Below, piece after piece: positions 4,712 through 55,960 of a DNA stretch of 64,000 nt (within the stretch, counting starts at the first letter, position 1; each line of letters begins with the position of its first letter). A program made the position numbers and the translations under genes. Source of the stretch: Daucus carota subsp. sativus (taxonomy: Eukaryota; Streptophyta; Magnoliopsida; Apiales; Apiaceae); assembly GCF_001625215.2 (NCBI RefSeq), contig NC_030386.2, forward strand, positions 35,777,296 to 35,841,295, read 5' to 3'. The notes under the pieces were generated by a model. That model did not search any database and was not told where the DNA came from. It saw nothing but the letters and a program-made list of their open reading frames with translations.

Positions 4712-7700
4712 ATGGCTACTAAATCCAAGTAATTCCCCTTACTTTCTCCTGATCTACATTTTAAAGTTCATGTCTTCATATTTGTTTTTCATTTAGGTTT
4801 GTTTTGTTTACTAATTTTGTGCAGCTTTTCTTTGATTTGTTTCAAATTGTTGATCTTTCTGCTATTGTGTATGATTTGTGTAATGGGTTTTGAATTGATC
4901 ATTCTTGGGCTTAATCTTGATGACCCTTGTGGTAAATTGTGCTCTAAATTGTGTTTTTCAGATTTTATAGTGTGGATCTAGGTGCATAGACTCTATTGCA
5001 ACTGTTTTGCATAGTATTTGTAAAAATTATGCATTCTGGTGTCAAAATTGTGATAAAGTTTCCACCTTTAGGATAGATTTTTTTTAATTATTAAATTTAT
5101 AAGCAGTTTATGCTTAATTAATAGTGATATGGATTGTGGGTATAGATCTTGCATTGTTTGTTTTGAATGGATTTTGTATGTTGATGTGATCATGACAGGT
5201 TGAACTTGAACAAATCTGCTTTAGTGGAAACTCCCAACAGTAAAGCATCTACAGAAGCTCCTAATAACAAAGCCTCTAATGTGACTCAAATTAATAAAGC
5301 ATCTAATGTTAACAACAACAAAGTATCTCCGGCAACTCCCAAGATTCCTAAATTGGGCAGGGGAATTGTGAAATCTGAGACTGATTCTCCATCCCCCTTG
5401 CAAAATTCGCGCCTCTCCATTGATCGCTCTCCAAGATCTGTTCCGTCGAAGCCCTCGGTGGATCGCAGATCTCCAAAGCTCAACACTACTCCTGATGTAA
5501 GTTCTAACTAAATTTCAGTTTTTTTAAGTAAATGTGGGTGATTATCTAATAGGAATAGACAAATTCATTGTGATTATCAGTGAGGTTGCTTCATAGATGT
5601 GGCATAAGTCTATTCAAGGAATTACAGCAATGTCGAATTATGCTTCTTGCAAGTGTAATATATAAAATGGATCTTGTGAAATTGGAAGTTGATTTGATTT
5701 TAATATTTGTACTGACTTTGATATATAGAAGCAACCGACAAGGCTGTCAAAGGGATCAGAACTACAGGTTCAACTAAATCTTGTCCAGGAAGACTTGAAA
5801 AAGGCAAAAGAGAAGTTAGCTGAGGTCGAGAAAGAGAAAGATCAGGCAGTTGATGAGCTAAAAGAAGCTCAGAGATTAGCAGAGGAAGCTAATGGGAAAC
5901 TCGCGGAGGCTTTGGTTGCTCAAAAGCGAGCAGAGGAGGAATCTGAAATCGAGAAGTTTCGTACTGTTGAAATGGAACAGGCGGGTATTGATGCAAATCA
6001 GAAAAAGGAAGAAGAGTGGCAGACGGAACTTGAAAATATGCAGAAGCAACATGCACTGGATATTGCTGCTCTTCTCTCTGCCACTCAGGAGCTCCAGAAG
6101 GTGAAACAAGAGCTAGTCAGGACTTCTGATGCAAAAAATCAGGCGCTTTCCCATGCTGATGAAGCAACTCAGATTGCTGAGATACATGTGGAGAAGGTAG
6201 AGATTCTGTCAGCTGAGTTGGCCCGTTTGAAAGCTTTACTCGAATGCAGGAACACGACTGAGGCTAATAATAATGACACTATAGTCTTGGAACTGAAAAT
6301 AGATGTAGAGACATTAAAACAAGAGCTAGACAGGGCAAAAGAGTTTGAATCAGAGGCTAATAATTACAGTCGAATGGTGATGGAGCTCACTTCAGAGGTA
6401 GAGACATTGAAACAAGATCTTCAGAAAGCAGATAATTACAAGGAGAAGCTGGCAGAAACAGAGGTTGCTGTAGCGCAACTAAATGTCGAGCTGGAGATGG
6501 CAAAGATTGCTGAAGCTTGTGCGCAGGAAAAAGTAAAGAATTATGAAGTGGAGGCTAGCAATTACAAAAATATTGTGATGGAACTTAAATCTGAGGTGGA
6601 GACTTTGAAACAACAACTAGAGAAAGCAAATGATCATGAGAAGAAGGTACTGGAGATTGAAGCTGAACTAGAGAAACTCAGTGTAGAGCTTGAGGCTGCA
6701 AGAACGGCTGAATCTTATGCGCATAATCTACTAGAAGAGTGGCAAAAAAGGGTTGAAGAATTGGAGCTTCATGCTGAGAAAGCAAACCTGCTGGAAAAAT
6801 CTGCATCAGAGTCTTTGGACTCGATCATGAAACAATTAGAGGAAAGTAATGGTTCATTGCATGATGCGGAATCTGAAATTGCCTCTCTTAAAGAAAAAGT
6901 GGGATCACTGGAAATATCAATAGGATCACAGAGAGGTGATCTTGAGATTTCAGAGCGTAGTCTTAATATGGCCAAGGAACAAGCTTCTGAGATGGAAAAG
7001 GAGGTTGAATCTCTTAAGTGTGAGCTTGATACTTTGAAGGGTGAAAAAATCCAGGCTTTAAACAATGAGAAGTTGGCTGCTGAAAGTGTTCAGACTCTGC
7101 TAGAAGAGAAAAGCACACTCATAAATGAGTTGGAAACTTTCAGGATAGATGAAGAGAAAAGTAAGAAAGCGATGGAGAGTCTTGCTTCAGCATTACATGA
7201 GGCTTCTTCAGAAGCAAGAGAAGCCAAACAAAAACTAATCTCTGCTGAAGAGGAGCATGAAAATCTTAAAACCCAAGTTGAAAATTTAAAGCTGGTTTTG
7301 AGAGCATCAAATGAGAAGTATGAGAGTATGCTTGATGATGCTAAACATGAGATTAATGTTCTTACTAATTCGATCCAGCAAACCGAGCATGATCAGCAGA
7401 CTGCCATGGCTGAGAGAGAACAAAGAGAGCTTCATCTAATGGATTGCATTAATAAATCCGAAGAAGAATGCTCTTCAATGACAAAAGAAGTCAGCAGGCT
7501 GGTTAATGCACTTAAAGAAGCCGAGGATGAAGCATCTGCAACAAAGGAGGAAGAAGCTCGGCTTAAGAATACCCTAGCGGAAGCTGAATCTGAGATGCAC
7601 TTTTTAAAGGAAGTTCTTGGGGAAGCAAAAGCTGAAAGCATGAAACTGAAGGAAAGTTTAATGGACAAAGAAAATGAACTGCAGAGTGTTGTTCAAGAGA

Positions 7701-8335
7701 ATAAAGAGCTTCAGAACAAAGAATCAGCTTCTCTGATAAAGGTCAAGGAATTGTCGAAGTTGCTTGAGGAAGGTACAACGAGGAAACAAGCTGAGAACAA
7801 TGGTGAACTTGCAGACAGTGAAAAAGATTATAATTTGCTACCCAAGGTGGTAGAGTTCTCCTTACATAATGGCGATCAGAAGGAAGAAAATACCGAAGCA
7901 GAGATCCCACATCATGAGGAACCTGTGAAGGAAATTCCTCTAACAGAGAGAAATGTAGTGGATGTCAAGACAGTTGAAAATGGTACTGAAACTACAGACA
8001 TAAACGAAAAGCCCAAAGTGTGTGAGAGCAAAGAAAAGGACGATGATAATTCAGTGGAAATTGAATCTAAGATATGGGAAAGCGGCAAGATTGAAGAGAA
8101 GGACTTCCTGGAGGCAGCGGAGAAGGAATCCGTTGAGGAAGTCGACTCAAAGACGGAGAATAATAGCCTGGACCAGATTAATGGATTGTCTTCAAAGGAA
8201 GATACTCCGACAGTACATCTGGAGAATGGTGGAAGCTCACCACCAACAAAAGAACAAAGTCACAAGAAGAAGAAGCCTTTGCTCCACAAATTCGGAAGCT
8301 TATTGAAAAAGAAGAGCTCAAGCAACCCCAAGTGA
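4712..8335 (+). CDS. WEB family protein (At3g02930-like), complete, three exons
   Basis: Exons are 4712-4728, 5199-5496 and 5729-8335; all junctions are GT-AG and the frames join without a break, giving 973 aa. The tiny first exon encodes MATKSK. Exon 2 is Ser/Pro/Asn-rich, typical of the N-terminus (possible plastid-targeting or disordered region; inference). Exon 3 is almost wholly coiled coil (residues about 120-790), followed by SEKDYNLLPKVVEFS, an acidic tail and the basic end KKKKPLLHKFGSLLKKK. Arabidopsis At3g02930 is about 806 aa. The extra length comes partly from repeats of a VETLKQ-type module starting near 6284, 6377 and 6575. The family acts in light-driven chloroplast movement; this member's role is inferred. 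It lies between two other tandem copies. Confidence 0.93.
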
Positions 8336-9564: not shown

Positions 9565-9858
9565 GTAGTTTAAAATATATTTAATTTCCTCCTATTTCTT
9601 TATTGAAAGCTCAATTTCAACAAATAAATCAAACTTTTTAATAAATTTCAACAAATAAATCAAACTTTTTAATCACTAAACTGTAAGGAATGAGTTGTTT
9701 TATACGGTATATATATATATATAGTATATGATTATATCACAAGGAACGGGGATGAAGGACTGAAGGTAGCTTTAAATCATGACAATATCGTTTACTTGAA
9801 CACAAAGAAATGATGAAAATAATATATATTAATTATTTGATGTATTCAGTTGTTCAAC
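9565..9858 (+). repeat. Direct repeat, left copy, bracketing the WEB fragment
   Basis: It shares TTTCCTCC, CAAACTTTTTAATCACTAAA, GGAATGAGTTGTTTTAT, a TA microsatellite, ATCACAAG and AACACAAAGAAATGATGA with 11245-11530, in the same order and orientation. Inside, about 30 bp (ATTTCAACAAATAAATCAAA plus CTTTTTAAT) occurs twice in tandem at 9612-9673. Confidence 0.8.
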
Positions 9859-10309
9859 AGAAAATGCCGAAGCAGAGATCCCACATCACGAGGAACCTGT
9901 AAAGGAAATTCCTCTAACAGAGAGCAATGTAATGGATGTCAAGACAGTTGAAAATGGTACTGAAACTACGGACATAAACGAAAAGCCCAAAGTGTATAAA
10001 AGCAAAGAAAAGGACGATGATAAATCAGTGGAAATTGAATCTAAGATATGGGAAAGCGGCAAGATTGAAGACAAGGATTTCCTGGAGGCAGCTGAGAAGG
10101 AATCCATTGAGGAAGTCGACTCAATGACGGAGAATGATAGCCTGGACCAGATTAACAGATTGTCTTTAAAGGAAGATACTCCGACAGTACATCTGGAGAA
10201 TGGTGGAAGCTCACCGCCAACAAAAGAACAAAGTCACAAGAAGAAGAAGCCTTTGCTCCACAAATTCGGAAGCTTATTAAAAAAGAAGAGCTCAAGCAAC
10301 CCCAAGTGA
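9859..10309 (+). pseudogene. Truncated WEB gene copy (C-terminal fragment)
   Basis: About 450 bp nearly identical to 7884-8335. It encodes the last about 150 residues of the complete neighbour, including ESKIWESGKIE and the basic end KKKKPLLHKFGSLLKKK, with the same stop. Homology begins abruptly inside what was exon 3, with no promoter, start exon or upstream coiled coil. The similarity continues through the 3' UTR to about 10607, so this is a DNA-level duplication, not a processed copy. The frame is still open, which with the high identity points to a recent event. An ATG at 9932 could give a 125-aa peptide, but nothing shows it is expressed. Confidence 0.88.
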
Positions 10310-18762: not shown

Positions 18763-20356
18763 AATTCAGCTGAGCTATGTCGTTTGATCTCGCAGAATGT
18801 AATTAGTAGTCTATTATTGCATTTTCTATTAAATTTTCAGGCATACGCTGCCTTATAAACTGTTTGTATATGTATATGGTTGGGTTGGTGTTTAAGATGA
18901 GCTTGTAATGATACAATCCCTTTAAGGTAAAAAAAATTTCATTTCATTTTTATGTTTCTAGCAGTGATTTTTATTTCTGAATAGTGTTATTCATTTCCCT
19001 TTTCCGCTGTAAATGCTTGAAAAATGTTGCCTGGCTTATGTATGTCTGGTTGTATAAGTAGATGAGATCTGGACAGCAGGTAGTTGTCATCATTGAACAA
19101 TGCTCGCTGACATTTCAGCTGTGAGTTCTGGATGAGAAATGACCAAGTCCCTATCCATGGCTATTGGCTAGTACCATAAGGTCCAGAATAGAACTTCTTC
19201 GTTTTTTTAAAGCCCGTCTTGATTTTTGATACACATTTTTTGATAGTTTGTTCTGATTATAGGAATTATTTTTTTCTTTTGTAAAATTTTCTGCTATGTT
19301 GAGATAAACAATTTTTGAGATCCTCCTTATATCTTACTACTTAACTTAGAGAAATTAGTGATATGAAAAGTCCAATAATATTTTACATCATAACTTATGT
19401 TTACATATATAATTTCTAAAATACTTACACCAATCACCTGTTACTGTTTAAAATTAAGTTTAGAGAAATCAATCACAACACCACATAAAAAGTTCAATAG
19501 AAATTGTTTTGCAGCATAATGGATGTCATGCCAACATAAATAGTATCTGAAATCCTTACTCCAACCATCCTTACATGTTCCTCCTTAAATTTGAGAAATC
19601 AACCAAGAAAAACACATATTACACCATTCGATTAAAACAACTTTTTGATTTCTCAAATTTTAAATAACTATTCATTCCATCACATAATTTATGTTCCATT
19701 TATTTTTATATCTTAAAATAATAATTTATTTGATCTTTAACTTTTTTTAAAAAAATATTAAAGATATAATATACAAGCATGTATTTCTTTTACGAGAAAT
19801 ACTAGAGATCTCCAAAAAAATAAAAACAAAAATTTTCAAAAAAAAAAAATGATATGTCAAGTTGTTACTAGTTACTCACATGATATAAAGTCCCTTTTAT
19901 GCACATCAATTTAAATTGTTATCCTCTGCACATTATAATATGTGATAAAGTCAAATGAGACGAAAATTATGATAGTAAAGTGATTTTATTATATGTGGAT
20001 AACCAATTCAAGCAACTCCTTCAAAAACGCTACAAGACCCAATTGTTCATAATATTTTGGTGTCCACCAATAAACTGTCGAGTTCTTAAAAAACTTGAAT
20101 TTAAATTTTTTTAAAGATTTTGAAAATGCTCCACGAGCCCAATTGTTTATAATATTTTTGTTTATAATATCTCAAAGACTCCACTGAGTCGGCTCCTGAA
20201 AATTTTGAATTGCATTTAGTAAAAGATTACAAGGTACAAAAACTAGGTCACAAGTGAAGCAGCTGCAGTAACGCAAATATGGCTGTACACTTGATTGCAA
20301 TAAAGTTAAAGTCGTAACCTGGCTCTCGAGAGAACCCCACTACAATCAATACTGCC
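18763..20356. other. Spacer between convergent NERD and PEPCK-like genes
   Basis: This contains the 3' UTRs of both genes. I see no further exon, RNA gene or clear transposon. Confidence 0.5.
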
Positions 20357-23300
20357 TTAAAACGAGAATTCCTTTGGCAGTTCTTGAAAGTTATTTGATA
20401 AGAAGCTCTTATACCTCCTTTTCAGATCTCCACCTATATGATGTTAACATGTGATGCAGTTGTTTATTTGTTTAAAATGGAAAGCATTCAGCTATAATAG
20501 GACACATAATAGGTGACTTACCTTTCAGTTTACTTGGCCAGATATTCTCTTGTAGCGCAGACTGAACCAAATCGACAAGATTCATGCCTACATAGAAATT
20601 TTCGCAAGCATGAAGTTGGCTTAATTGAGCATTATGACAAGTAAAACAGTGATGAAGTTATTTAATAAAACCAGAAATATTGTCTTAAAACACTAGAGAA
20701 AGCAATTTAAGTGTTTTAGGATACAAAAAGAACACGCATTTCATTGCACGAGTTGGCAAAAATTATTAGCATAGTGCATATATACATATATGGGTCTTGG
20801 TCCCTGGCAGTTAATTGCCAGAACCTCTTAACAAGCTTATAGATTTTGGGTCGTTAGATGAATATCTAGCGGCTAGGGTTATAACAAAATTTTAATACGT
20901 CTAACGCTTTTTAACCGCAGAACAGAGAAAATGACCCCGTCCAGCGGTGGATGTGTTAAAAAAAATGTTATAATCCTGGCCGTTGGATTATCATCCAACG
21001 GCCCAAAATCTATAAGCCAGTTAACAGGTCCCTGGCACCCTATACATATATAGCGAGGGCTTATCTTCTTCACTCAAGGGATGTCAATCAGCCACAGCTT
21101 TTGTCTGCAATGTCTGGCTTCATGTTGTAAATTATGTTTGCATAATGATTAAGAAGCATGATATAGGCAGATACCTTCTGTTGAGGTTGCAAATATTAAG
21201 CATGATCGAGCAACAAGCCAGACACTAAAGCACAATGTTATGTAATAAGAAGCTTCAGAAAAGAAACACCAGAGAAAAAGGGATACTAGCATGTTAAATG
21301 AGTCAAAAATATATATTGGCAGAACTAAGGAAGTAGGGGAAGGTACAATCTCAGTTCTGCTACGTATTTGGCTCCTTGCAAATTGTTTCAGCAGATACTG
21401 AAAAACGATAAAGAGAACTTGAAATTTTAATCCAACTTGATTAAGATGAGACAAACATTACTTCTTAGGTGAACTGAAAAACATAAGTCAGCTGGAATAG
21501 TGGTCCACGCCACAACCTTTTGAGGAGAAGGAGATGGCAGGGGGGAAAGGACAGTTGTATTAACTACAAGCCTTGCCCGTGGATTTGAACAGGTAAGCTT
21601 ATGAGGAGAGCAACTAATAAATCTTCCCAGAGGACCAAACACAACTTTTTTGAACTTTGCTTACCTGTTTTTAACGTTTGTCCTTCATTCAAATTAATCA
21701 AGAAAGATGAAATTTGGTTCTCTTGTAACTGCAAAATAAAAATACAGTCAAACACAACTACACAAGTGTGTAGCTTAGGAGAGTATAACATCAGTATACT
21801 GTTTATACCTTTGACAGAAGACCTTTTGCAAGCTGTAAAGGATCAACAGAAATGTTTTTACTATATGCAGGTGTGAACTTCCCATTCTGATGCCCTACAA
21901 GAAAGTGGTAAGCTGCTTGGCCAGGTGTAAGCTTTGCAATGGATGGAATCATTCCTGAACTAATTTAACATGAAAAAGAACAGAGGACTTTCTGGTTAAC
22001 AGCCATTCAAAATTTAATGCAGTGGCCAAGATGAATGATGAATAAACATAAAATATCATTAAAATGTAACTTGCGTAGCATGAAAAACAAATAAATAGAT
22101 GTAAAAAAAAATAAAGAGCATAAAATAGAGAGATAAAGGCCTTGTTTGGCAATTAGCATTTAGCGGATTGATTTAGCTGTTTAGACTAGCTGATTGAAAT
22201 AGCTATTTTATTTGAAACTGTTTGGTAAATACTGTTTAATTAGTTCTTTTGTATTTTTAGTAGACACGTAGCAAAACTCTAATCGACAAACCTCGTCCAA
22301 GTAGCTTTTCCGAAATTAGTTTTTGAGTCCAAACCACTATTTCAATCCGCTAACTACTAAACACCAATATTAGATGATTCACATGGTCAAACCTCTAACT
22401 TTCATTTTCAAAAAAAAAAAAAAAAAACCTCTAACTTTCAAACAAGGCTAAAAAGAACTAGAGGAAGAAGAGCTAAAAATTGAGTTATTCCTTTCTCTAA
22501 ACTTTAACTTCCAAACAAGGCCAAAAAGAATTGGAGGAAGAAGAGATAAACATTGAGTTATTGACAAAGGTCACGTGGGCTGATCCAAGGTTGAAGGTTA
22601 TCTATCGAACTAAAGGAAGAAGAGCTAAAAATTGAGTTATTCCTTTCTCTAAACTTTAACTTCCAAACAAGGCCAAAAAGAATTGGAGGAAGAAGAGATA
22701 AACATTGAGTTATTGACAAAGGTCACGTGGGCTGATCCAAGGTTGAAGGTTATCTATCTGATATATGGCAATATTATCTTTACCTAAACAAAATATGTTC
22801 ACATTAGTGATATAGATTGCCATAACAGTGTCATGTTGCTGCTTTAACTATAGCCAAGTAAAGACTGAATAAGGCCATGTAAAGGAGCAGTCACTAAAAA
22901 TTTGGATTTCTGAAAGTGATGCAAGTATATAATACATTACAAAAAACAGAGTAAAATATTTTTAGGTTTCACTAGTTCATACAGATTACAGTTTTAAGTC
23001 ACATATGATGCTTGATATCTTAGACTTCGGTTTCTATTTTCGTTTAATATGCCCTAACTAGTCGAAAGAAGGTAGTAGCATAACTGGACTATAAATGTAA
23101 GTACCTTCTTAACACACTACACAGGAAGTATCCAACACCTTTCTATAATTCCATATGCAGCACACAATCAAGTATTTTCCTTGAATAAATATAGGGGGTA
23201 TATTAATTCTCACTTTTTATCTTTTCAAGCACGTTTGCATTACTGCAAAATAAGCACGTCATCTTCAATAAGTTTTCTGATTTGGTCGTCAAATACATCA

Positions 23301-26300
23301 ATCAGTGACAGATGCATATTAAAATAGCAGAGTGCGAGAAAGAAACTTAACAATTACCCACCCAACAAAAAGTAGAGTTACTTCATCTCAATTTAGTACC
23401 TATCAGAAGTTGCAAGGATAACAACTGATGGTAATTTCCAAACACACTCTCCTCCTGAGTTTCCAATTTGAAAGAGTGGTGAAACACCTTCAGACGATAT
23501 AACAACACCAGCTTTAGGTGATACTAATACATCTGAGAATTTTCGAAGAGAGTCTTCTGGAGCAAACAAAAGCATCACCAAATTGCTAGAAACTAGAAGC
23601 CTGCCATTTACAACGATTATATGTCTAAATACACATTGAATAAATGCAAATAAATAAAAGTAAACAATTATTTTACCCAGCAGAAAGAGGAAGGCCTCCA
23701 CGTGAAATGATAATAGGTTCAGACAAGGCAGTTAGTGCTTCCCTTGCTCCATTCACATCAGCAAAAGCCTTACCACATAAGATTAAAGATGAACGTTCAG
23801 TATCAGCAGCAATAAATCCATTATCTCCTTTAATACCAAGAGACTCTCCAATACTTGAACTGAACAAGTAGAATGACAGAAGAAAAAACATTAAATATTC
23901 AGCCACAGCAGCAATGAGCTAAAACTATATATAGACCTGTACTGATAATCTGTATATTGTTTAAATTTATCTTCTGAAAAATAATATTCGTTGGTGTATG
24001 CATGTTATAACTGCTTTCAAAGTACTTTAACAGAAACTATATTATATGAAAAATCAGTATTCAGATTTTAAAAATAGGGCAAGTGATTTAGTATATATCT
24101 ACGTTGTATCTAAAACATATTGCAGAAGTCGGAACGTATAACGATCAGGGGCAGTACTCCCTTAAGTCCAAATTGTGCACACATAAAGCATTTCCCTCGA
24201 TCATAAAAGAAAGGCAAGACATATACAACTAAAAAATTCCAACCACAAAAGTTAGAGGAGCCTGTAGGAGAGGAAAGCATGCAACATGAAGAGCAAATGC
24301 AGTTCCCATTTCATTAGGGCGCTTAGATTTTTATAAAATATTTCTTCCTGTCAAGCATACAAAATATGGGCTTTTAAATTTCCGGACATGGTAATAGTTC
24401 TTTTACATATCAATCAAAGTCTGTGATCATTTTCAATATGTTTTAATTGGACATGCATATGTTTATGAGGAGGATAATGAGAGCAAGTATTTCCAAGTAT
24501 TTAAACCTCAATCATGGTTTAAGAAAATGATTGCAATATATATCGTAGATTGATGTTGTATACACTATTGCATAGGCCTCTAAGAACTCAATATATGCCA
24601 TATCTTATACTAAGACTACTAGGCATGACAAATATTTCCAAGTGCTCAGAGACAAGGCACTACACCATATACTTTGTGATTTTCTATGATACCTTATGGA
24701 TGAGGCCACATATACAGTCAAAGGACAGGTATCATGAGAAACTGCACGACTAGGGGTTCTCCAGAGCAACTTGGAAAGTGACAGCACAGAAGATGGGCTG
24801 TCACTTACGATGCGAACTTTTGCATCACATTTTAGCAATGAACTAATAGCTCCATCATGGACATATAATTCTGAGACTGATGAAATGTAAGATGTCACCT
24901 GGAAACAAAAAAAAATATTGATAATCAAGGTTGTGACCATCAGTCCTCCACGTATCTACAGTAACCATGAACTATATAGCTCATAAAGAGGGGGGAGAAA
25001 GGGAGAGAAAGATGCCTGCTTTAAAAGTTTCGTAAATTGTGCCCTAGAAAGTTTTGAATTTCTCGAGTATTCATTCCCTCGAATGAGGAAGGGAACACTT
25101 AGAGAATGCTCTGTAATCCATAAATGCATAGAATTCAGAATAAAAACAGGAAAAAAATTACGAAACTACAATGATTATGACAAAGGTCCTACCTACATTT
25201 GTTGCACCTTTCTGCCTCAGTTCAAAAGCTGTCAAGTTCTGAAATACTTTTTCCTTCACAATGACGCCTTTCCCGGCCAGGCCCCAGTTAAGACCAGTAG
25301 ACAATTCAGGACCTTCACTACAATTGGAAAATGGGACATCGAAGAATTGATATGTAGAATGAAGCTTACACATATATGTTATTCAGACTCTGGTACAACA
25401 CATATACTAGTGTCAGACTCACAAAATTTGAGAAATGGGGAAACTGGGACACTGTCCTATTTTGACACCAGATAATTGATTAATTAACGAATATATTAGG
25501 TAAGATAGCTCAACAGAAACTAACAAAATAGCCTACATTTAGCATGACTTCATAAGGGACTTTGTAAATTAGGTGTCTTCTCCTCTTCATTTTCTCATAT
25601 TAGATTCTTCTTTCTTCTCATATTTTTCTTTATGCATCTCAAGTACAACTGACACGTCATTTCCCAATTGATCAAAGAATTAACCAGTATAATATCAGAC
25701 ACAAAACAAGTGTTGTTCCCAGTTGTCCACGTGTCCTAGTTACATGCAGTGATTTTCTATCATCCTATACCTTTTATAGTATGGACACACTGTTGCACAA
25801 ACCTGAGATAAGCCAATCCCGTAGTTTTCATGCGAGCTTAATGATCACTTGCATAGAGAAACTACAAATATGTCATACTTTTTGTACAATCTAAGTAATA
25901 CAAGCCAACATAGCTTCTGTATAACTAGTATATTGAGCAAGCAGACATGTATTAAGCTTATAAAATATTGCTAGTGCATAGTAGTAGAGTGAATCTTACT
26001 ATATAAAACAAATCACCTTGAAGCAGTCCTAACTGCATCCTTTTCTGAGGAAACTATATTCTGCAAGGTCAAAGTATCCAAACAATGCAAATCAAATTTA
26101 GAGCACTGAACTAGACGTACGAATTCATGGCTGCTATATGAAGAAAAGTAAGCCACGAGGTATATAAAGAGGCAAATGTCCCTTCTCTAGCGTCAAAAAT
26201 TGACTTCTCATATAAACAAAGTCCCGAGGTACATCAATTTCACAAATTACAAGGAATTGGCTCCACCACCAATACTAACAACTAGCAAGGTAAATTCGGC

Positions 26301-26963
26301 AATTCCTACTACAGTACAGTACAGAATACAAATATTTACGGAATTTTGAGCAAATTCCTATAAATAAAACATTGTTTGTCGAGGTGTTCCACAATGTTGG
26401 GTGGCAACAAGCCTGATTATTGTTTCGCATAAGAGATGGAATGAATTTCAGACGCGGCTTTTCAGTTGATTGCCACAATTTTATACAAATGTGAAGTTAA
26501 CTACTAGGTTTTAAGTTGATTACCAATCCCTAGGGTGGATAATATCTCGCTTAAAACATACTCCCTCCGTCTCAATTTATAGGTCCAGTTTGGAAAAAGA
26601 ATTTGTCCCAAAATATTTGTCCCTCTCTTCTTTCAATACAAATTTATCTACATCTTAAATGTGATTTTTTTGAAACTCAACATTATTCTCATTTCTCAAT
26701 GCACTAAATCTCTATATTTATTGTGATTTTTTTGAAACTCAACAATATTCTCACTTATCAATGCACTAATTAATGATACATATGATAAGATTCCATCTAA
26801 CCAACTTTTTTCTTAATATATGTGTTTATTCCAAAATGGACTTATAAATTGAGACGGAGGGAGTATTGCAATATGAGTGAAATTAGAGCATAAGAGTTAG
26901 CATCCACCGAAAATCATCATAGCGGGAACAAACAGAGTTTATATGTAGAATAAAAGAGAGAGG

Positions 26964-27000
<37 letters not shown>

Positions 27001-27073
27001 CGCGTGCAAAGTAACGATGTGCAGGAATTGGGGATTTGAATTTGTTAAAAGAGACATGTGCGAATCTCTTCAT
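20357..27073 (-). CDS. PEPCK-like protein, ten exons, probable pseudoenzyme
   Basis: Exons on the minus strand: 27073-27002, 26060-26017, 25317-25197, 24898-24693, 23859-23677, 23600-23400, 21959-21809, 21728-21665, 20587-20522 and 20433-20357. All are GT-AG with matching phases, giving 394 aa. The N-terminus (MKRFAHVSFNKFKS) is basic, fitting a mitochondrial presequence (inference). Similarity to ATP-type phosphoenolpyruvate carboxykinase is seen by eye in NLTAFELRQKGA, in SELYVHDG with KVRIV, and best in GMIPSIAKLTPGQAAYHF (residues 278-295), which parallels GVLPPVSKLTPEQAMYHF. The P-loop GLSGTGKT appears as APEDSLRK (222-229) and the following metal-binding IGDDEH region as VVISSEG. Catalysis is therefore unlikely. 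True PEPCK is about 540-670 aa. The function is unknown. Confidence 0.8.
20781..21051. mobile_element. Foldback MITE in intron 8 of the PEPCK-like gene
   Basis: The body 20792-21040 (249 bp) starts GGGTCTTGGTCCCTGG and, on the other strand, GGGTGCCAGGGACCTG. The arms share GCTTATAGATTTTGGG followed by a CGTTRGATGAWWATC palindrome. An 11-bp direct repeat TATACATATAT flanks it (20781-20791 and 21041-21051). The long inverted repeat and 9-11 bp duplication suggest a Mutator-type MITE. Confidence 0.75.
22139..22530. mobile_element. Possible MITE with GGCCTTGTTTGG ends
   Basis: GGCCTTGTTTGGCAATTAGC near 22139 faces inverted CCAAACAAGGCC near 22512-22523. The target duplication is not clear, so the family is open. 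Confidence 0.4.
22462..22761 (+). repeat. 152-bp tandem duplication in intron 6 of the PEPCK-like gene
   Basis: Two units, 22462-22613 and 22614-22761, both running from AGGAAGAAGAGCTAAAAATT to GGTTATCTATC, with almost no difference between them. Each holds CACGTGGGCTGATCC. The near identity makes it a recent local duplication. Confidence 0.9.
26559..26865. mobile_element. Stowaway MITE in intron 1 of the PEPCK-like gene
   Basis: The body 26561-26863 (303 bp) has ends CTCCCTCCGTCTCAATTTAT and the inverted ATAAATTGAGACGGAGGGAG, flanked by TA on both sides. These are textbook Tc1/mariner-type Stowaway features. Inside, a block with TGTGATTTTTTTGAAACTCA is repeated twice. Confidence 0.93.
26953..26997. 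repeat. (GA)n microsatellite
   Basis: A pure GA run lies directly beside the 5' splice site of exon 1 of the PEPCK-like gene, within intron 1. Confidence 0.9.
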
Positions 27074-28050
27074 ACCAGGAACGTATTGAAGAGTGGCGTT
27101 GCGAAGCAGAACACACACTACTACTGTGATTAAGAAAGTGAGGAGGCCTCGCGAAAAGCTCAGGTCAGGCCCAGTCGGGAGAGAACTGGGCTTTCAGCCC
27201 AAAAAATTTCTAAATTCAAACTCGCTCCTGCTCCAGTATCCTAAATCTAAATCTGTTGAGGTTGGTTTAGTTGGAGGGGTGACATGGGGTTTGAGATTGA
27301 GTGCAAAAATCAATATATACAATTTTTGTAAAAATAAGCTATTAATTTATATTAATTGAAAATATTAATAAAAGTATTATTATTATATATTTTTGCATCA
27401 TTGATTAGATTTTGTATAAAATATTAATATTTCATTATTTTAACAGAGACACCAAAAGTAAAAAAATTGAATATATGTCATACCTCCATCTCATATTCAC
27501 CTCCTCACTTGGGTATCAAAAATCCCATACTTGATTTCAGATACCCTGAACCAAACGACATTTATTACTTCTTCTATTTTTTAAAGAGTCATTTTTAAAT
27601 TTTACAAAAAAAAATCTGACTGGTACCAAAATAATTCGTATCATCTACATCGCAATTATCATATACAAGTGAAGAATTATTTTTTTAGGATTACCCAACA
27701 TGATTTTATTCCTTTTCATCTTTTTAAAATATACACATGTTTCGTGGCAAAAAAATAAAAAAAATATACACATGTTAACTTTATATAATTATTTTTGAAT
27801 GTGAATGGCGCGGCAGTCAAAGAAAAAGAAGACAGGATGTACTAAAATAATCAAATATTTCACGTCCTCACGTTACTCCTCCATTAATAAAGCAATTCAC
27901 AACAACCCCGAATCTTCTGTGCAAGTCAATGATCCAATATCAAGTCATCTAGAAGCCCAGGCCCAAGCCAGCCGCCTTCAGACTGAAATAAAAGTCTAGA
28001 GCCTATGCTGCTATGCATTGAATTTATAAGCTTCGACGCTGATATATAGC
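27074..28050. other. Divergent intergenic region
   Basis: This lies between the minus-strand PEPCK-like gene and the plus-strand Bet v 1 array. From about 27915 it is the promoter of Bet v 1 gene 1; CAAGTCAATGATCCAATATC and CAGCCGCCTTCAGACTGAAA are repeated upstream of gene 2 near 30834. No other gene is seen. Confidence 0.6.
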
Positions 28051-28060
28051 CTATATATAA
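28051..28060 (+). promoter_or_regulatory. TATA box candidate, Bet v 1 gene 1
   Basis: CTATATATAA lies about 85 bp upstream of the ATG. It sits in a block (TATATAATCCACCYTCGAAC) conserved upstream of gene 2. Confidence 0.6.
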
Positions 28061-28141
28061 TCCACCTTCGAACAAGTCATAATCACAAATCGATATTTAC
28101 TCAACATAAGAAAGCATACTACAGAACTACATTGAAGAGAG

Positions 28142-29248
28142 ATGGCTGGGTCAGTTAGCTGTGAATTAGTGATCAATGCACCAGCAAGCTCGGTGTGGGA
28201 TCTGATCAAAGGTCTTAAGTTAGCGGCTGCTATTGAAGAATCATTCACTCATCTTATCGAGAAAATCGACGCCGTCGGTGATGGTTCCGTCGGTACAGAA
28301 CTCAATATCAAGTTCAAACCAGGTACCTTTCTTATTCATTCTTATATCTTCTTCATCGTTTCTCTCATTTATTTTATTTTTCACACAAATTTAAATATTA
28401 ATACATGTTGGTTCATTTTTTAATGTCTTATATTTGCGAGATGGATTTTTGAGTTTTCGCCATTGGTTAGTGTTCCGGACAGTTTTGAGAGACATTGGCC
28501 GATCTGTTAAATTCAAAGTTATATTTTTAGTGATTGTTTGGTTTTATAATTACAATACTGATATTTTATTCGATGTTATAAGTTTGGTGATTGTTTGATT
28601 TTATAGTCACAATGTTAATATTTTATGTTTTTGAAAATGTAAAACCGATTTTGAGAGATGTTAACTGATTTGTTGTGCTATAATTTCAGTGGTTGTTTGG
28701 TTTTATAACTACAATAGTAATATTCTATGTTTCTGAAAATGTAAAAATGGTTCTTAGACAACAAATGTCCAAAAACAGTTTTGAGCACGGTTGAATAGCT
28801 TGGTTAAAAGTTTATCTTCCTGATTTATTAGCACAGATACTCAATAGATACTCACTTGTAAGTTGTAAGGCTATAAGTCATATGCGTAAAAAAATGGTTT
28901 TCGGAAAATGTTGTTTCTGAACCCAGAAAGCTGATTCCACATTTGTTTGGGTCATCAGGCACAGTTCCCTTTTCTTACTACAAAGAGAGGTTTACCAAGG
29001 TTGACAACGAGAGCATGGTGAAAGAGAATGAGGTTTTTGAGGGCGGTTATTGTGATTTGGGATTCAGCAAATACTTTGTTCGATTCGAGATCGTAAAGAA
29101 GGATGAGAATAGCTGCATTGCAAAAGCTACAACTGAGTATGAACTTAAGGCAGATGCTGATCCTAATCTCGCTTCCTTAGTTTCAGTTGATCAAATGATG
29201 GGTGTTCTCAACCTTGCTGCTAACAAAGTCGTAAACGGATCCAAGTAA
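28142..29248 (+). CDS. Bet v 1/PR-10 family protein 1 (norcoclaurine synthase-like)
   Basis: Exons 28142-28322 and 28959-29248, GT-AG, phase-1 intron in the Gly-61 codon, 156 aa, the usual family length. The domain fills the protein: Gly-rich loop VGDGSVGTEL, then YYKERF, DNESMVKE, EGGY and the C-terminal helix ending NKVVNGSK. Aligned to Thalictrum norcoclaurine synthase, Tyr108, Glu110 and Lys122 are kept (Y68, E70, K82) while Asp141 is Val101. There is no signal peptide, so it is probably cytosolic. It pairs with gene 2 (31037), sharing MAGS-SCELVI, promoter blocks and even intron text. Bet v 1 folds bind hydrophobic metabolites; the ligand here is unknown. An AATAAA at 29371 may be the polyadenylation signal. 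Confidence 0.93.
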
Positions 29249-36526: not shown

Positions 36527-37030
36527 TTAACCAAAATATAAAGACCATATCTGTCGAGTCACTAATATCACATCAACAATAATCATATTAAAATAATATT
36601 TTACTCCTAGTAGGGCCGCGTCCTTCTGAGATGCTAACTTTGCGAGGGCGTCAGCATCCCCGTTGAATTCTTTAAGTACTTTGTTCACTTGCACCTCTTC
36701 AAACTGATCTAACAATCCTTGGACACATCTGAGATATATGTCTGTTTTGGGTCCATTTGCTTGGTATCCGCCTTTTATATTCTCGACCACCAGCATAGAG
36801 TCGACTTTGATGATAAGCTTCTTTACTTTCATCTCAAGGGCTAGTCTCAACCCCCCGATCAGGGCCTTGTACTCTGCATCATTGTTAGAGAGTTGAAAGA
36901 TAAAATGAATTGCATTCAAGAGTCTATGCCCTTCCGGGCTTACCAGCACTATTCCGACTCCTGCTCGTTTACGGCCCCCGTCTGTGTGTAATATCGACCA
37001 GAGCTCGGGTACGTTCTCCTTAGAGTACGT
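36527..37030 (-). mobile_element. Fossil Ty3/gypsy pol fragment (RNase H region)
   Basis: On the minus strand a translated stretch resembles the RNase H-like domain of plant Ty3/gypsy polyproteins (NNDAEYKALIGGLRLALE, DADALAKLAS). Only this part of pol is seen; no gag, integrase or paired LTRs lie nearby. It is an old, incomplete relic with at least a few breaks. Confidence 0.8.
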
Positions 37031-38507: not shown

Positions 38508-38561
38508 CATAGTTCGTTCAGCGTGAGAAAACATATCTCAAGTAGTGTAACAGAAGCAAAG

Positions 38562-39251
38562 ATGTTTGGAACACTTAGCGGAGAATTAGAGGTGAATGCA
38601 CCAGCGAACGCGGTGTGGGAAGTGTATGGTTCTCTTCAGCTAGGTTCCGTCGTCGAAAAAGGCTTCACAGATGTCATTGAAAGAATTGAGGTTGTAGAGG
38701 GTGATGGTTCTGTTGGTACCGTTCTTAATCTCGTTTTCAAACCAGGTATTTCTGCTTTCACTCTAGCTATCTGTGAAATATATTTATTATTTGGAAAATT
38801 ACAAAAATACCCATGTTTTCAAAATTATTTGCAAAAATATAACCGAAGTTGCAAATGCGGTTGCAACGCCTTGTTTTTCTGGTAAAAGGGTTGCAGATGA
38901 AGTTGCACCGTGTTTTTGAAATAATTTCTGCAACTTGGCTATTTTTGAAAAAAGTTATCTTCAGGTGTGGTTCCATTTCCGTCCTACAAGGAGAAGTTCA
39001 TCACGGTTGACAACGCGAAAAGGGTGAAGGAAACTTTAGTTGTAGAAGGAGGCTATCTTGAAATGGGATTTGATCGCTACTTTGTTCGCCTGGAGATTAT
39101 TGAGAAAGACGAAAAAAGCTGCATAACAAGAGCCACGGTTGAGTATGAACTCAATGAAGAGTCTGCTGCCAATGCTTCTCTGGCTTCCATCGACGCTCTC
39201 ATGGCTATCATGAACATTGCCAACACTCACATTCTCGCCACAACCAACTGA
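38562..39251 (+). CDS. Bet v 1/PR-10 family protein 5 (norcoclaurine synthase-like)
   Basis: Exons 38562-38745 and 38965-39251, phase-1 intron, 156 aa. The start MFGTLSGELEVNAP is chosen to match genes 4, 6 and 7; the longer frame from 38523 is upstream sequence. Gly-rich loop EGDGSVGT, Y69, E71 and K83 are present; Val102 replaces the catalytic Asp. It is close to genes 6 and 7 (EGGYLEMGFDRYF). Its short intron is largely filled by a MULE-like MITE that also occurs at 51561. The 100 bp upstream resembles that of gene 6, so regulation may be shared. Confidence 0.94.
38793..38958. mobile_element. MULE-like MITE (GGTTGCA family) in the intron of Bet v 1 gene 5
   Basis: About 166 bp sharing CTTGTTTTTCTGGTA, GGTTGCARATGAAGTTGCA and the inverted AAAAATA-rich ends with the copy at 51561-51727. 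The target duplication is not clear here. The right end abuts the 3' splice site. Confidence 0.65.
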
Positions 39252-51736: not shown

Positions 51737-53238
51737 TTCATGTTAAAATTATATGTATTAATATAATATTAAAATTGTTAGATATATTTAATTAGACTTG
51801 GCAAATACTTCAAAAAATTCTCAAATATGAATATCTTCGTAATATTTCTCTGGTTTGACTCATTTACACCGTCTTGTCTTGTAGCATTCCGCTAATTTGA
51901 CTCATTTCCGCCCGATATGACTGAGGACGTTGAAGTTGGCTACAATCTACCTGCCGTATTGGTAAAATGTTATGGAGATGGGGCAGCTTTGTGGCTAGCA
52001 CAGTTGAAAACACAACATAATGGCTGAAAGCTGGAAAGTTGTGATTTTCTAAAGCAATGCATGTTGAATTAATTGTTGTTTGATGAGGCAGATCGTTCTT
52101 TTACCTTGTTTATTCATCCCTCTTCTTTGAAACATTTCTTGATATGACCCGTGTACCTATTTTTAATTTCGACTTTTCTTTTATTTTTCTCAAATAATCC
52201 TGTTCACAATAAAATTATGTGATCAATTTGTTTCAAATATCAGCTAAATGTACTATTGTTTCAGAGTACTTTTCTAATTTAATGTGAATTGTTGGGGATC
52301 TCTTGAAAATAGAATGCCAGCATAAGTCCTTTCGACCCTAGCAGCCTAGCTGGATCTATTTATAAAAAACCCATTAAATTATCATCAAAGATTGTACTTT
52401 AATACGGCAAGTCATCAATTCTACTTGAGAGAGAATGAATGTATGTTTTTCTAGAGAATTCCTATTGATCACAGAAAATATATACAAAAAGAAAATGAAA
52501 ATTTTCTGGGTCTTAATCTTGTGAGTGTGAAAGATTGGATGGAATGAAAGCTCAAAGTTGTACAAATTTGAATTGACATCAAGTCAAGTCAGTAAACAGA
52601 AATTAGGAATTCTGAGGAGAAAATGAAGCAGAAGCCAGTTACCATGCACCAAATTGATAGAATAATGCAAAGTAAGGCAACAAACAAAAGATAAAAGATG
52701 TAAACAAGATTAAAATGGGTAAAGTTAATAACCCAAAAACTTTAAAGTGGTTAAAGCTTTTGACACATAAAATTCCAGCTTTCTTTCTTACCCATAAAGA
52801 AAATCAAGAAAGCAAGGGGGGAGTGAAAAGGAATTTACAAGATCTACAAAATAAATGAGCCAACTTTTTTACTTTGTCAAGAATTTCTCCATCTTCAACC
52901 TAGCCTAGCTCTCAAGGTCCCCTAACCCCATATTGTATAATAAAGAGAAAGTATTCCTTTCTCTTCCTCTTGGCTTGTGAGTGTCATTTTCTTGCATATA
53001 CTCCACACAAAAACAAGCATTAATCAACATCCCCTCTACTCACCTTTCTTTATATCCTTCATTCCTTCCCCTACCTTTTCCCTCACTCATGTCATTTGTT
53101 GCATTCTAACAACAACTACATCTCCACATTCTCTCTATTCTTCCAAATTCCACTTATAAGTTACAACCACAACAAAATACCATAAATCTTTATAATCTCA
53201 GTCCACCCCATTTCCACTGATTTTTCTGAAATTTGATC
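51737..53238. other. Spacer and upstream region of the KANADI gene
   Basis: No exon is seen. The last about 300 bp are CT-rich with CACTTATAAGTTACAACC near 53150 and probably hold the promoter and leader of the gene at 53239. Confidence 0.5.
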
Positions 53239-55960
53239 ATGGAACTTTTTCCAGCACAACCTGACTTATCACTTCAGATCAGCCCTCCAAACACCAAAAA
53301 CAACACACCAAGCTTCTGGAGAACCCCTCTTGATCATCACACCTCCAAGATCTCTGCACTGTCATGCAAGCCCGAATCGACCGACATAGCTTTCGAGCTC
53401 TCCCTTCTCCCCCATCACCAATATCACAACACAGAAAAGCCCTCATTGTCACAACCTCATCACCACAACAACAACAATCACAATCCCACCAATTTTCACC
53501 ATGCTCCCCCTCATCTCTTCCAATACAAACAAAATGGCAACTTTGGACCTCATCACCAAATTCAAGAACTTCCACAAGGGTTTCATCAACAATACCAAAT
53601 TCAAGAAACCCAACAAGGGTTTCGCCAAGAAATCGATTACTTAAGGCCTATCAGAGGAATTCCAGTCTATCAAACTCAAAAACCAACACCCTCTTCTTTT
53701 CTCTCAGCACCTCAACAACAACAACATTACTCTTCTCTAGACTCTTCCAATATCTCAAGATCTAAATTTTTATCAAGATTTCCGACAAAGCGAAGCACAA
53801 GAGCTCCCCGGATGCGGTGGACTACAAGCTTACACGCTCGTTTTGTCCACGCAGTTGAATTACTTGGTGGCCATGAAAGTAAGTACTCATAATTGCACCA
53901 TTTCTGAGCCTTTATAAATTTCAAGAATGTGCTTAATCCATGATGTTTTGTTAGGAGCTACACCAAAATCAGTACTTGAGCTAATGGATGTGAAAGATCT
54001 CACCTTATCTCATGTCAAGTCTCATTTACAGGTAACAATTTTAATTATTAATAATCATGAGATGAGTTGGTTCAAGTTCCCATCATATGTGTAACTACCT
54101 AATTATACTGTAATCATTACACAAACTGATTAAATTTCAGATCTTTATTTATTTTACTAATTGATAGTAATAAACTAATATATATCTGCTTTTATGTCCT
54201 TAAAGTAGGAGTACTGGCTAGCTACATATTGGTTAATTTTGTTTCATATTTTAGTGAATAAGGCCAATGAGCAATTAATGTGACTAGTGTTGCAGTCTTG
54301 CAGAACCCAATGTTTTATGTTTTGGTGAAAGATCTCTGCAACCTTAGCTATCTATAGCTAGGTCTTTGCTCTTTTACTTCACCATAGGCATATATCTATA
54401 CACACAAATGTGTATATATACATGGATCTGATGGTTGACAGAAAAAGAAGCAGCTTTTTAGATGGAAGAAGAAAACATCTAAACATGGAAAAAGGGTAAA
54501 TTTCAAGTAAAAATAGTCAAGGTGGTAACTTTGGGAGATAAGACATTTCTTGGTTGCAGAGATCACAATTTGAGGTCAAGGAACTTATAACAAGTCAGGA
54601 CCACCTGGACTGTATCATTCAAAAATCAAAACCCTTTTTTCAATTTTTTTTCTTTTAAATTATCAGTTTTTGGTTACAGTAGAACTTCGGTGAACAATTT
54701 TTTCCTGGTTCCAACATAAAAGAGACAATGTATTTTCAAACTCGAACTAAGTGTGATTTGTGAGTAAATTTAGTTGAGTGCTGGTAAGAGATGACATGTG
54801 TGGATTATTAAATGAGCAACAAGGAAGTGGACAAAAGAAGTACTGTGGTGCTATCATTTCTCAATGATGTCTTCATTATTGGTCTTCCTAGCCCTATAAA
54901 CAGTTGTTGATATTCAGACACTGTGAGTAATATTAATGTTAAAGAGATGCATGCATAATGCACACACACACTTAATTACAAGGATTGGAAGTAAAGTAGA
55001 GCAGGCAAAACAGACAACAGTGAATGCAGAAATAATGGTGTCTGAGTCTCCCAGTAACTTACATGCATCATGCATGCAATTATCTACATCTTTCTGTTAC
55101 AGATGTATCGCACCATAAGGACCACAGACAGACCTGCAAATTCTTCAGGTAACCATTTATTATCTCCCACTGCTTCTTCTTGTTTTTGTGTATTTGGTTT
55201 CTGTCATTGTTCTTAATTCTTGTTTACGCGAATATTAGGGACCATTTTGAGGCTTTATGATTGAATTATTACATTGGTGTGGTTTTTACTTCCCTCCTGA
55301 TCACTGATCATCATTTTGTCAGATGGATTCGAAAGCGATTTGGTGGTCGATAACTCTGAGGATCAGGCTGGCGATGTGCAGATTCTAGGCGAAGCGTCTG
55401 GGGCATCATCTGTTAAACGAACAAGGCCGGTGGCTATTGAACAAGATCATGATTCTTATGGCCTCTGGAGCAATTCATCATCAAGGTGAAATAAATAACT
55501 CGAGTTTCTGATGGTCATTATATTAACATAAAATTAATAAATTAAACCAGTTACAGTTAATTTGCAATATCAAAGAATCATTGCTAATTTACTGATTTAA
55601 GAAAAATTAATGTGTTGGATTATATTGAAACCTTGGCATGGAAGCTTCCTGGTAGTTTCTTACTTTACTGGCTAGTAGTTTAGAATATATAATGTGTGTC
55701 ATGTGAGTATAAAGCGAGCAGAAATGGGGAACATAGAAGCAGAAAAGAGATGTGATTTCCTAGTTACCTGAGCTTATTACTTTCATAGGAGCTTTCTTTA
55801 TCTAAATATTAGTAATCATGTTATTCCCTCTTCATCTTCTGTTTCATTTGTTTTGCAGGGATGCTGGGATTCGTGGAAAGCCAATCAGGTCCACTACAGG
55901 ACACCCTAGCCCTCCTTTTGAGGTATACTTGAACTATGCCTTCCTCTTCTATTTCTCGCT

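Follow-up and report, generated by a model that had tools for sequence, protein, structure and literature searches.

The gene at 20357-27073 of the window (the whole 64,000-nucleotide stretch of Daucus carota DNA analysed here) raises the question of whether a plant can keep a relative of ATP-type phosphoenolpyruvate carboxykinase (PEPCK) that has lost its nucleotide-binding motifs and, if so, what such a protein would do. We address this in terms of the exon model, the homology of the spliced protein, the fate of its active site, its origin and the state of its reading frame, and then weigh the possible functions.

Exon structure and surroundings of the gene

The initial annotation had joined ten exons at 20357-27073 into a 394-aa protein with good splice sites, and both the coordinates and the translation bear this model out: on the minus strand, the exons give 1185 nt from an ATG at 27073 to a stop codon ending at 20357. 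No stop interrupts the 394 codons of the spliced reading frame, and GT...AG borders are present at all nine introns. The frame 5' of the ATG is open, but without an earlier Met. Exon 1 (27002..27073) provides the start codon and 24 presequence-like residues, MKRFAHVSFNKFKSPIPAHRYFAR, followed by a GT donor, and exons 2 (26017..26060) and 3 (25197..25317) are defined by translation and splice sites. Exon 4 (24693..24898) encodes the core of the N-terminal PEPCK domain (SELYVHDG...AKVRIVSD...; profile domain 1, residues 78-181) and exon 5 (23677..23859) the remainder of that domain, with R, E and S at the Lys212/213 and His232 positions. In exon 6 (23400..23600) the P-loop and IGDDEH are absent, and about 60 residues are missing before VVILATSD is reached, while exon 7 (21809..21959) carries the best-conserved stretch, GMIPSIAKLTPGQAAYHFLVGH (profile domain 2, residues 250-300), and is shortened 3' of it. 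Exons 8 (21665..21728) and 9 (20522..20587) are again defined by translation and splice sites, and exon 10 with the stop codon (20357..20433) places Asn-Phe opposite the invariant Asn520-Phe521 (E. coli numbering).

Intron lengths include 941 nt (intron 1), 699 nt (intron 2), 298 nt (intron 3) and 76 nt (intron 5). Inverted repeats that we judged by eye to be MITE-like lie in introns of the gene at 26558-26866 (arms of 41 nt, 93% complementary), 20823-21029 (71 nt, 80%) and 22146-22367 (42 nt, 76%), and intron 6 contains an apparently recent tandem duplication of 152 nt (22455-22606 and 22607-22758, 99% identical).

Elsewhere in the window, a Bet v 1 family gene (28142-29248, plus strand; PF00407 matched on the piece 28877-29245, start placed by eye) is oriented divergently from the PEPCK relative; another Bet v 1 look-alike, recognized by eye and without a Pfam match, lies at 38508-38885 on the plus strand. 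A long WEMBL (PF05701) reading frame occupies 5729-8335; 1.5 kb on, a second frame (9833-10309) repeats its C-terminal end by eye and, on that impression, may be a partial tandem copy. A minus-strand fragment at 36527-37030 with RVT_3 (RNase H-like) similarity is probably a retrotransposon remnant. The last part of a plus-strand open frame at 53230-53892 contains MRWTTSLHARFVHAVELLGGHE, in which the eye may see a GARP/MYB-like DNA-binding domain beginning; a Pfam search with this piece gave no match.

Homology to ATP-type PEPCK

Searched against Pfam, the spliced 394-aa protein matched PF01293 (PEPCK_ATP) with E=1.8e-13 and 50.5 bits (curated cut-off 26.5 bits), and no other Pfam family appeared at E<=10, so that nothing in the profile search placed it in another fold. 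A custom profile built with 12 canonical PEPCKs, ten of them bacterial and two from plants, gave 48.0 bits, and its match falls into two colinear stretches, each in a domain of its own: residues 78-181 on model positions 90-190 (i-Evalue 5.4e-7) and residues 250-300 on model positions 320-370 (1.6e-11). Among 2000 shuffles of the protein, the 780 with a reported score reached at most 4.1 bits. Given this maximum and the Pfam E-value, the homology to PEPCK is well above chance. The initial annotation was thus right that the C-terminal half tracks ATP-type PEPCK, but the likeness is not limited to that half, since the N-terminal domain matches too.

The model span between the two matched stretches, about 130 positions, is covered by only 69 residues, and two matched stretches with a compressed middle therefore describe a shortened PEPCK homologue. 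Comparison with PEPCK by hhalign returned probabilities of 95.5% (local) and 96% (global). All six NCBIfam families that were matched are PEPCK families, all far below their cut-offs: the protein scored 36.1 bits with TIGR00224 (cut-off 590 bits) and 53 bits with NF006820 (cut-off 636 bits), against 752.9 and 746.4 bits for the canonical protein encoded on contig C7 of the same genome. Among solved structures, the matches at E<=10 comprised 20 distinct sequences, namely 19 PEPCKs and one formyltransferase, the best at E=0.012. Over aligned columns, the protein is 15-23% identical to the 12 canonical PEPCKs. Of 90 invariant positions without a catalytic role, 58 are aligned; 19 of these are kept in one alignment and 18 in another.

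A six-frame PF01293 search of the own genome found both canonical genes and left the short exons of the 394-aa gene unmatched; because these exons were missed, the case for PEPCK homology rests on the spliced protein. Scans with the 394-aa protein, which reach close relatives only, produced 55 pattern matches in bacterial genome contigs and five in viral contigs, none of which was confirmed.

Loss of the active site

We mapped 17 active-site positions (65, 207, 212, 213, 232, 248, 250-255, 268-271 and 333 in E. coli numbering) with catalytic, nucleotide-binding or metal-binding roles, among them Arg65, Lys212, Lys213, His232, Asp268, Asp269 and Arg333. Each of the 17 is invariant across the 12 canonical PEPCKs, and the 394-aa protein keeps none: seven are substituted and ten fall in gaps, identically in two alignments. 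Two of the seven substitutions are conservative (Tyr207 to F and Lys212 to R). The columns of Arg65, Lys212, Lys213, His232 and Arg333 hold P, R, E, S and E, the Arg65 column being poorly aligned and falling in the presequence, and neither TGRS nor GRSP occurs in the protein. The P-loop (GLSGTGKT) columns contain an A and gaps, and the metal-binding Asp268 and Asp269 of IGDDEH, invariant in the canonical enzymes, face gaps. When only aligned positions are counted, none of seven catalytic positions is kept versus 19 of 58 other invariant ones, which is a weak contrast.

Outside the two matched stretches the register is uncertain. We therefore do not retain the residue pairing of the initial annotation, in which APEDSLRK stood for the P-loop and VVISSEG for IGDDEH: L-INS-i places VVISSEG opposite ENTR (Arg333) and IGDDEH opposite a gap, and hhalign, in the part of its alignment that was listed, distributes residues 207-250 differently from L-INS-i. 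The loss of the P-loop and of the Asp pair is nevertheless settled, because a motif search needs no alignment: the protein contains no G....GK[ST], GTGK, GDD, DDE, TGRS, GRSP, ENTR or GE[MI]KK, and the same set (P-loop, Asp pair, TGRS, GRSP, ENTR, GE[MI]KK) is absent from all six frames of 19500-28500. The TGRSP-type motif, reported as not seen, is accordingly missing from both the protein and these frames, and its region has no convincing counterpart in the alignments. Nor did we find added exons that restore the P-loop or the Asp pair. Intron 5 alone lies between residues 181 and 250, and at 76 nt it is too short to hide them; with the motifs absent in all frames of the region, hidden exons of this kind were rejected. 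From these sequence features, the 394-aa protein is very probably a catalytically dead relative of PEPCK.

Canonical PEPCK genes and the origin of the relative

The own genome, searched over 441 Mb in 11 contigs, has one canonical PEPCK gene on contig C7 and another on contig C4; the two products share 85% identity, and both possess the active-site motifs. For the C4 gene, 11 of 12 exon blocks were found, and their boundaries seem to fall at the same residues as in the C7 gene. Among the best candidates scored in this genome, no second copy of the 394-aa gene was found: the best-scored matches at E<=1 (n=11) were nine of its own exons and two weak matches to the canonical PEPCKs (E 0.004 and 0.007). 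Identity to either plant PEPCK is about 21-23%, and none of the nine intron positions is common to the gene and its C7 counterpart, which has eleven; the nearest C7 position is four columns off, in a poorly aligned region. On these grounds we rejected an origin by recent duplication from a canonical plant PEPCK, and the lack of coinciding intron positions points to an old, separate lineage.

In a tree of 13 proteins the branch of the 394-aa protein is saturated (about 10 changes per column) and its composition deviates, so that its placement is uninformative. In the same tree both canonical plant PEPCKs (L015, L016) cluster with Lujinxingia and Isosphaera at 99/99, a hint, within this thinly sampled set of 13 rows, that plant PEPCK has bacterial affinities.

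Maintenance of the reading frame

To train a codon-usage model, 2111 codons were taken from both canonical PEPCK genes of the genome and from one long open reading frame of the window. Under this model the annotated frame outscores the other two sense frames in all ten exons, even though exons 1, 4, 8 and 10 are slightly negative for coding and exon 10 wins by a narrow margin. Over the whole coding sequence the score is +0.10 bits per codon versus -0.43 and -0.68 in the other sense frames and -0.04 in the nearest antisense frame, and in 1000 intron windows of equal length the best frame never rose above -0.47 bits per codon. GC content by codon position is 0.48/0.43/0.29, compared with 0.34 in the introns. 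That the gene appears maintained, as had been proposed, is thus backed in one genome by the intact frame and the codon usage. Because an open frame, intact splice sites and coding-like codon usage coincide with great divergence, this one genome argues for a protein kept by selection.

The gene could instead be a decaying pseudogene whose exons are open by chance, as might be suspected from its high divergence, its deleted segments and the loss of every mapped catalytic position. However, neutral decay at such divergence should have left stops and frameshifts. With the triplet frequencies of the introns, 394 codons would all escape being stops with a probability of about 1.5e-11, a figure that serves as a guide only, as the exons were chosen open. 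The intact splice sites and the preference for the annotated frame in every exon argue against an old pseudogene, and we consider this reading improbable. Less probable still is an artefact of the gene model, in which another set of exons would give a different or a canonical protein. The model was derived from the genomic sequence; CAGTTCAAG at exon 5 allows two possible in-frame acceptors, introns 1-3 could in principle contain an extra N-terminal exon, and a 34-nt stretch (21397-21364) has splice-like ends. Yet this stretch was rejected as an added exon, since with it the frame is lost and stops appear; intron 5 is the sole intron between the two matched stretches, and the P-loop, Asp-pair and TGRSP motifs have no place in the six frames searched.

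The N-terminus and possible functions

The 24 residues of exon 1 include no acidic residue, the first one occurring at position 30, and the first 25 residues contain six Lys/Arg and two His. An 11-residue N-terminal segment has a hydrophobic moment of 0.52, and HRYF-A resembles the R-3 motif at which mitochondrial presequences of plants are cleaved. Judged by this presequence-like N-terminus, the balance tips slightly toward a mitochondrial protein. Plant ATP-PEPCK is cytosolic, and plants are not known to have a PEPCK in mitochondria.

Taking the evidence together, the reading that we favor with some confidence is that of a PEPCK pseudoenzyme that has been maintained and serves for binding or as a scaffold in mitochondria. 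An ancestral member of the ATP-type family would have diverged anciently, become shortened and lost all mapped catalytic, nucleotide-binding and metal-binding positions. The basic presequence of exon 1 would bring the protein into mitochondria, where what is left of the N-terminal domain, together with the C-domain core, could act non-catalytically as a binding or scaffold surface. Its tasks might be dicarboxylate sensing or the stabilization of an enzyme or complex of the matrix, and not so much direct modulation of cytosolic PEPCK. The scaffold or binding role, taken by itself, is a tentative proposal that falls somewhat short of an even chance.

Two other functions deserve consideration. 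Many pseudoenzymes regulate their active paralogue, and the protein shares both its family and its genome with two canonical PEPCKs, so that it might act as a partner that binds dicarboxylates or regulates the true cytosolic enzyme, for example in mixed oligomers. Such a partnership is weakened if the protein is mitochondrial, as its N-terminus suggests, because the true enzyme is cytosolic; moreover, the low identity to either plant PEPCK leaves little common surface, and the substrate-binding Arg65 and Arg333 positions are lost. We regard it as unlikely, if marginally less so than an active enzyme of altered chemistry that uses another site. The latter could draw on the two persisting stretches of the fold, and even with the P-loop gone, a member of the family might in principle accept some other ligand. 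Against it, the positions of Arg65, Lys212, Lys213, His232, the P-loop, Asp268, Asp269 and Arg333 are all gone, which makes neofunctionalization about as improbable as the pseudogene.

If conserved, the favored pseudoenzyme would represent a branch of plant PEPCKs that is non-catalytic and has a testable role, probably in mitochondria. In its broadest form this becomes a family of mitochondrial PEPCK pseudoenzymes found throughout plants and separate since ancient times, which did not arise by recent duplication of the known plant PEPCK genes and was co-opted as a scaffold, or as a metabolite sensor that couples organic-acid metabolism to some process in mitochondria, a conjecture that we offer as rather unlikely to hold in full.

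Comparison with known systems

Among the matches listed in the open-access literature, none describes a pseudoenzyme of the PEPCK family from plants; subscription papers or annotation databases may carry the family under an automatic name. A poplar gene list names a 'phosphoenolpyruvate carboxykinase family protein' (PMC11172939) and a jujube paper a 'carboxykinase-like protein' (PMC5744194), neither of which can be tied to the present family, and 'PEPCK' denotes PEP carboxylase kinase in a further paper (PMC10848310). Automatic annotation may give such genes the name PEPCK and list them among the gluconeogenic enzymes, even though this one keeps none of the 17 mapped catalytic positions. As a separate observation, PEPCK is annotated in pieces on a Leptospira noguchii plasmid (L025).

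Compared with ATP-type PEPCK, as represented by the two canonical plant genes and E. coli PckA, the protein shares a colinear N-terminal domain and the C-domain core, and the invariants in common include Asp363, Gly366, Pro369, Leu374, Phe383 and Gly386 (E. coli numbering). It differs in length, with 394 aa versus 540 in E. coli PckA and 656-658 in the canonical plant PEPCKs, and, unlike canonical PEPCK, it retains no mapped active-site position, has no intron position in common with the C7 gene and begins with a presequence-like segment. With its homology kept, its catalytic residues lost and its frame intact, it resembles pseudoenzymes in general, the dead paralogues of metabolic enzymes.
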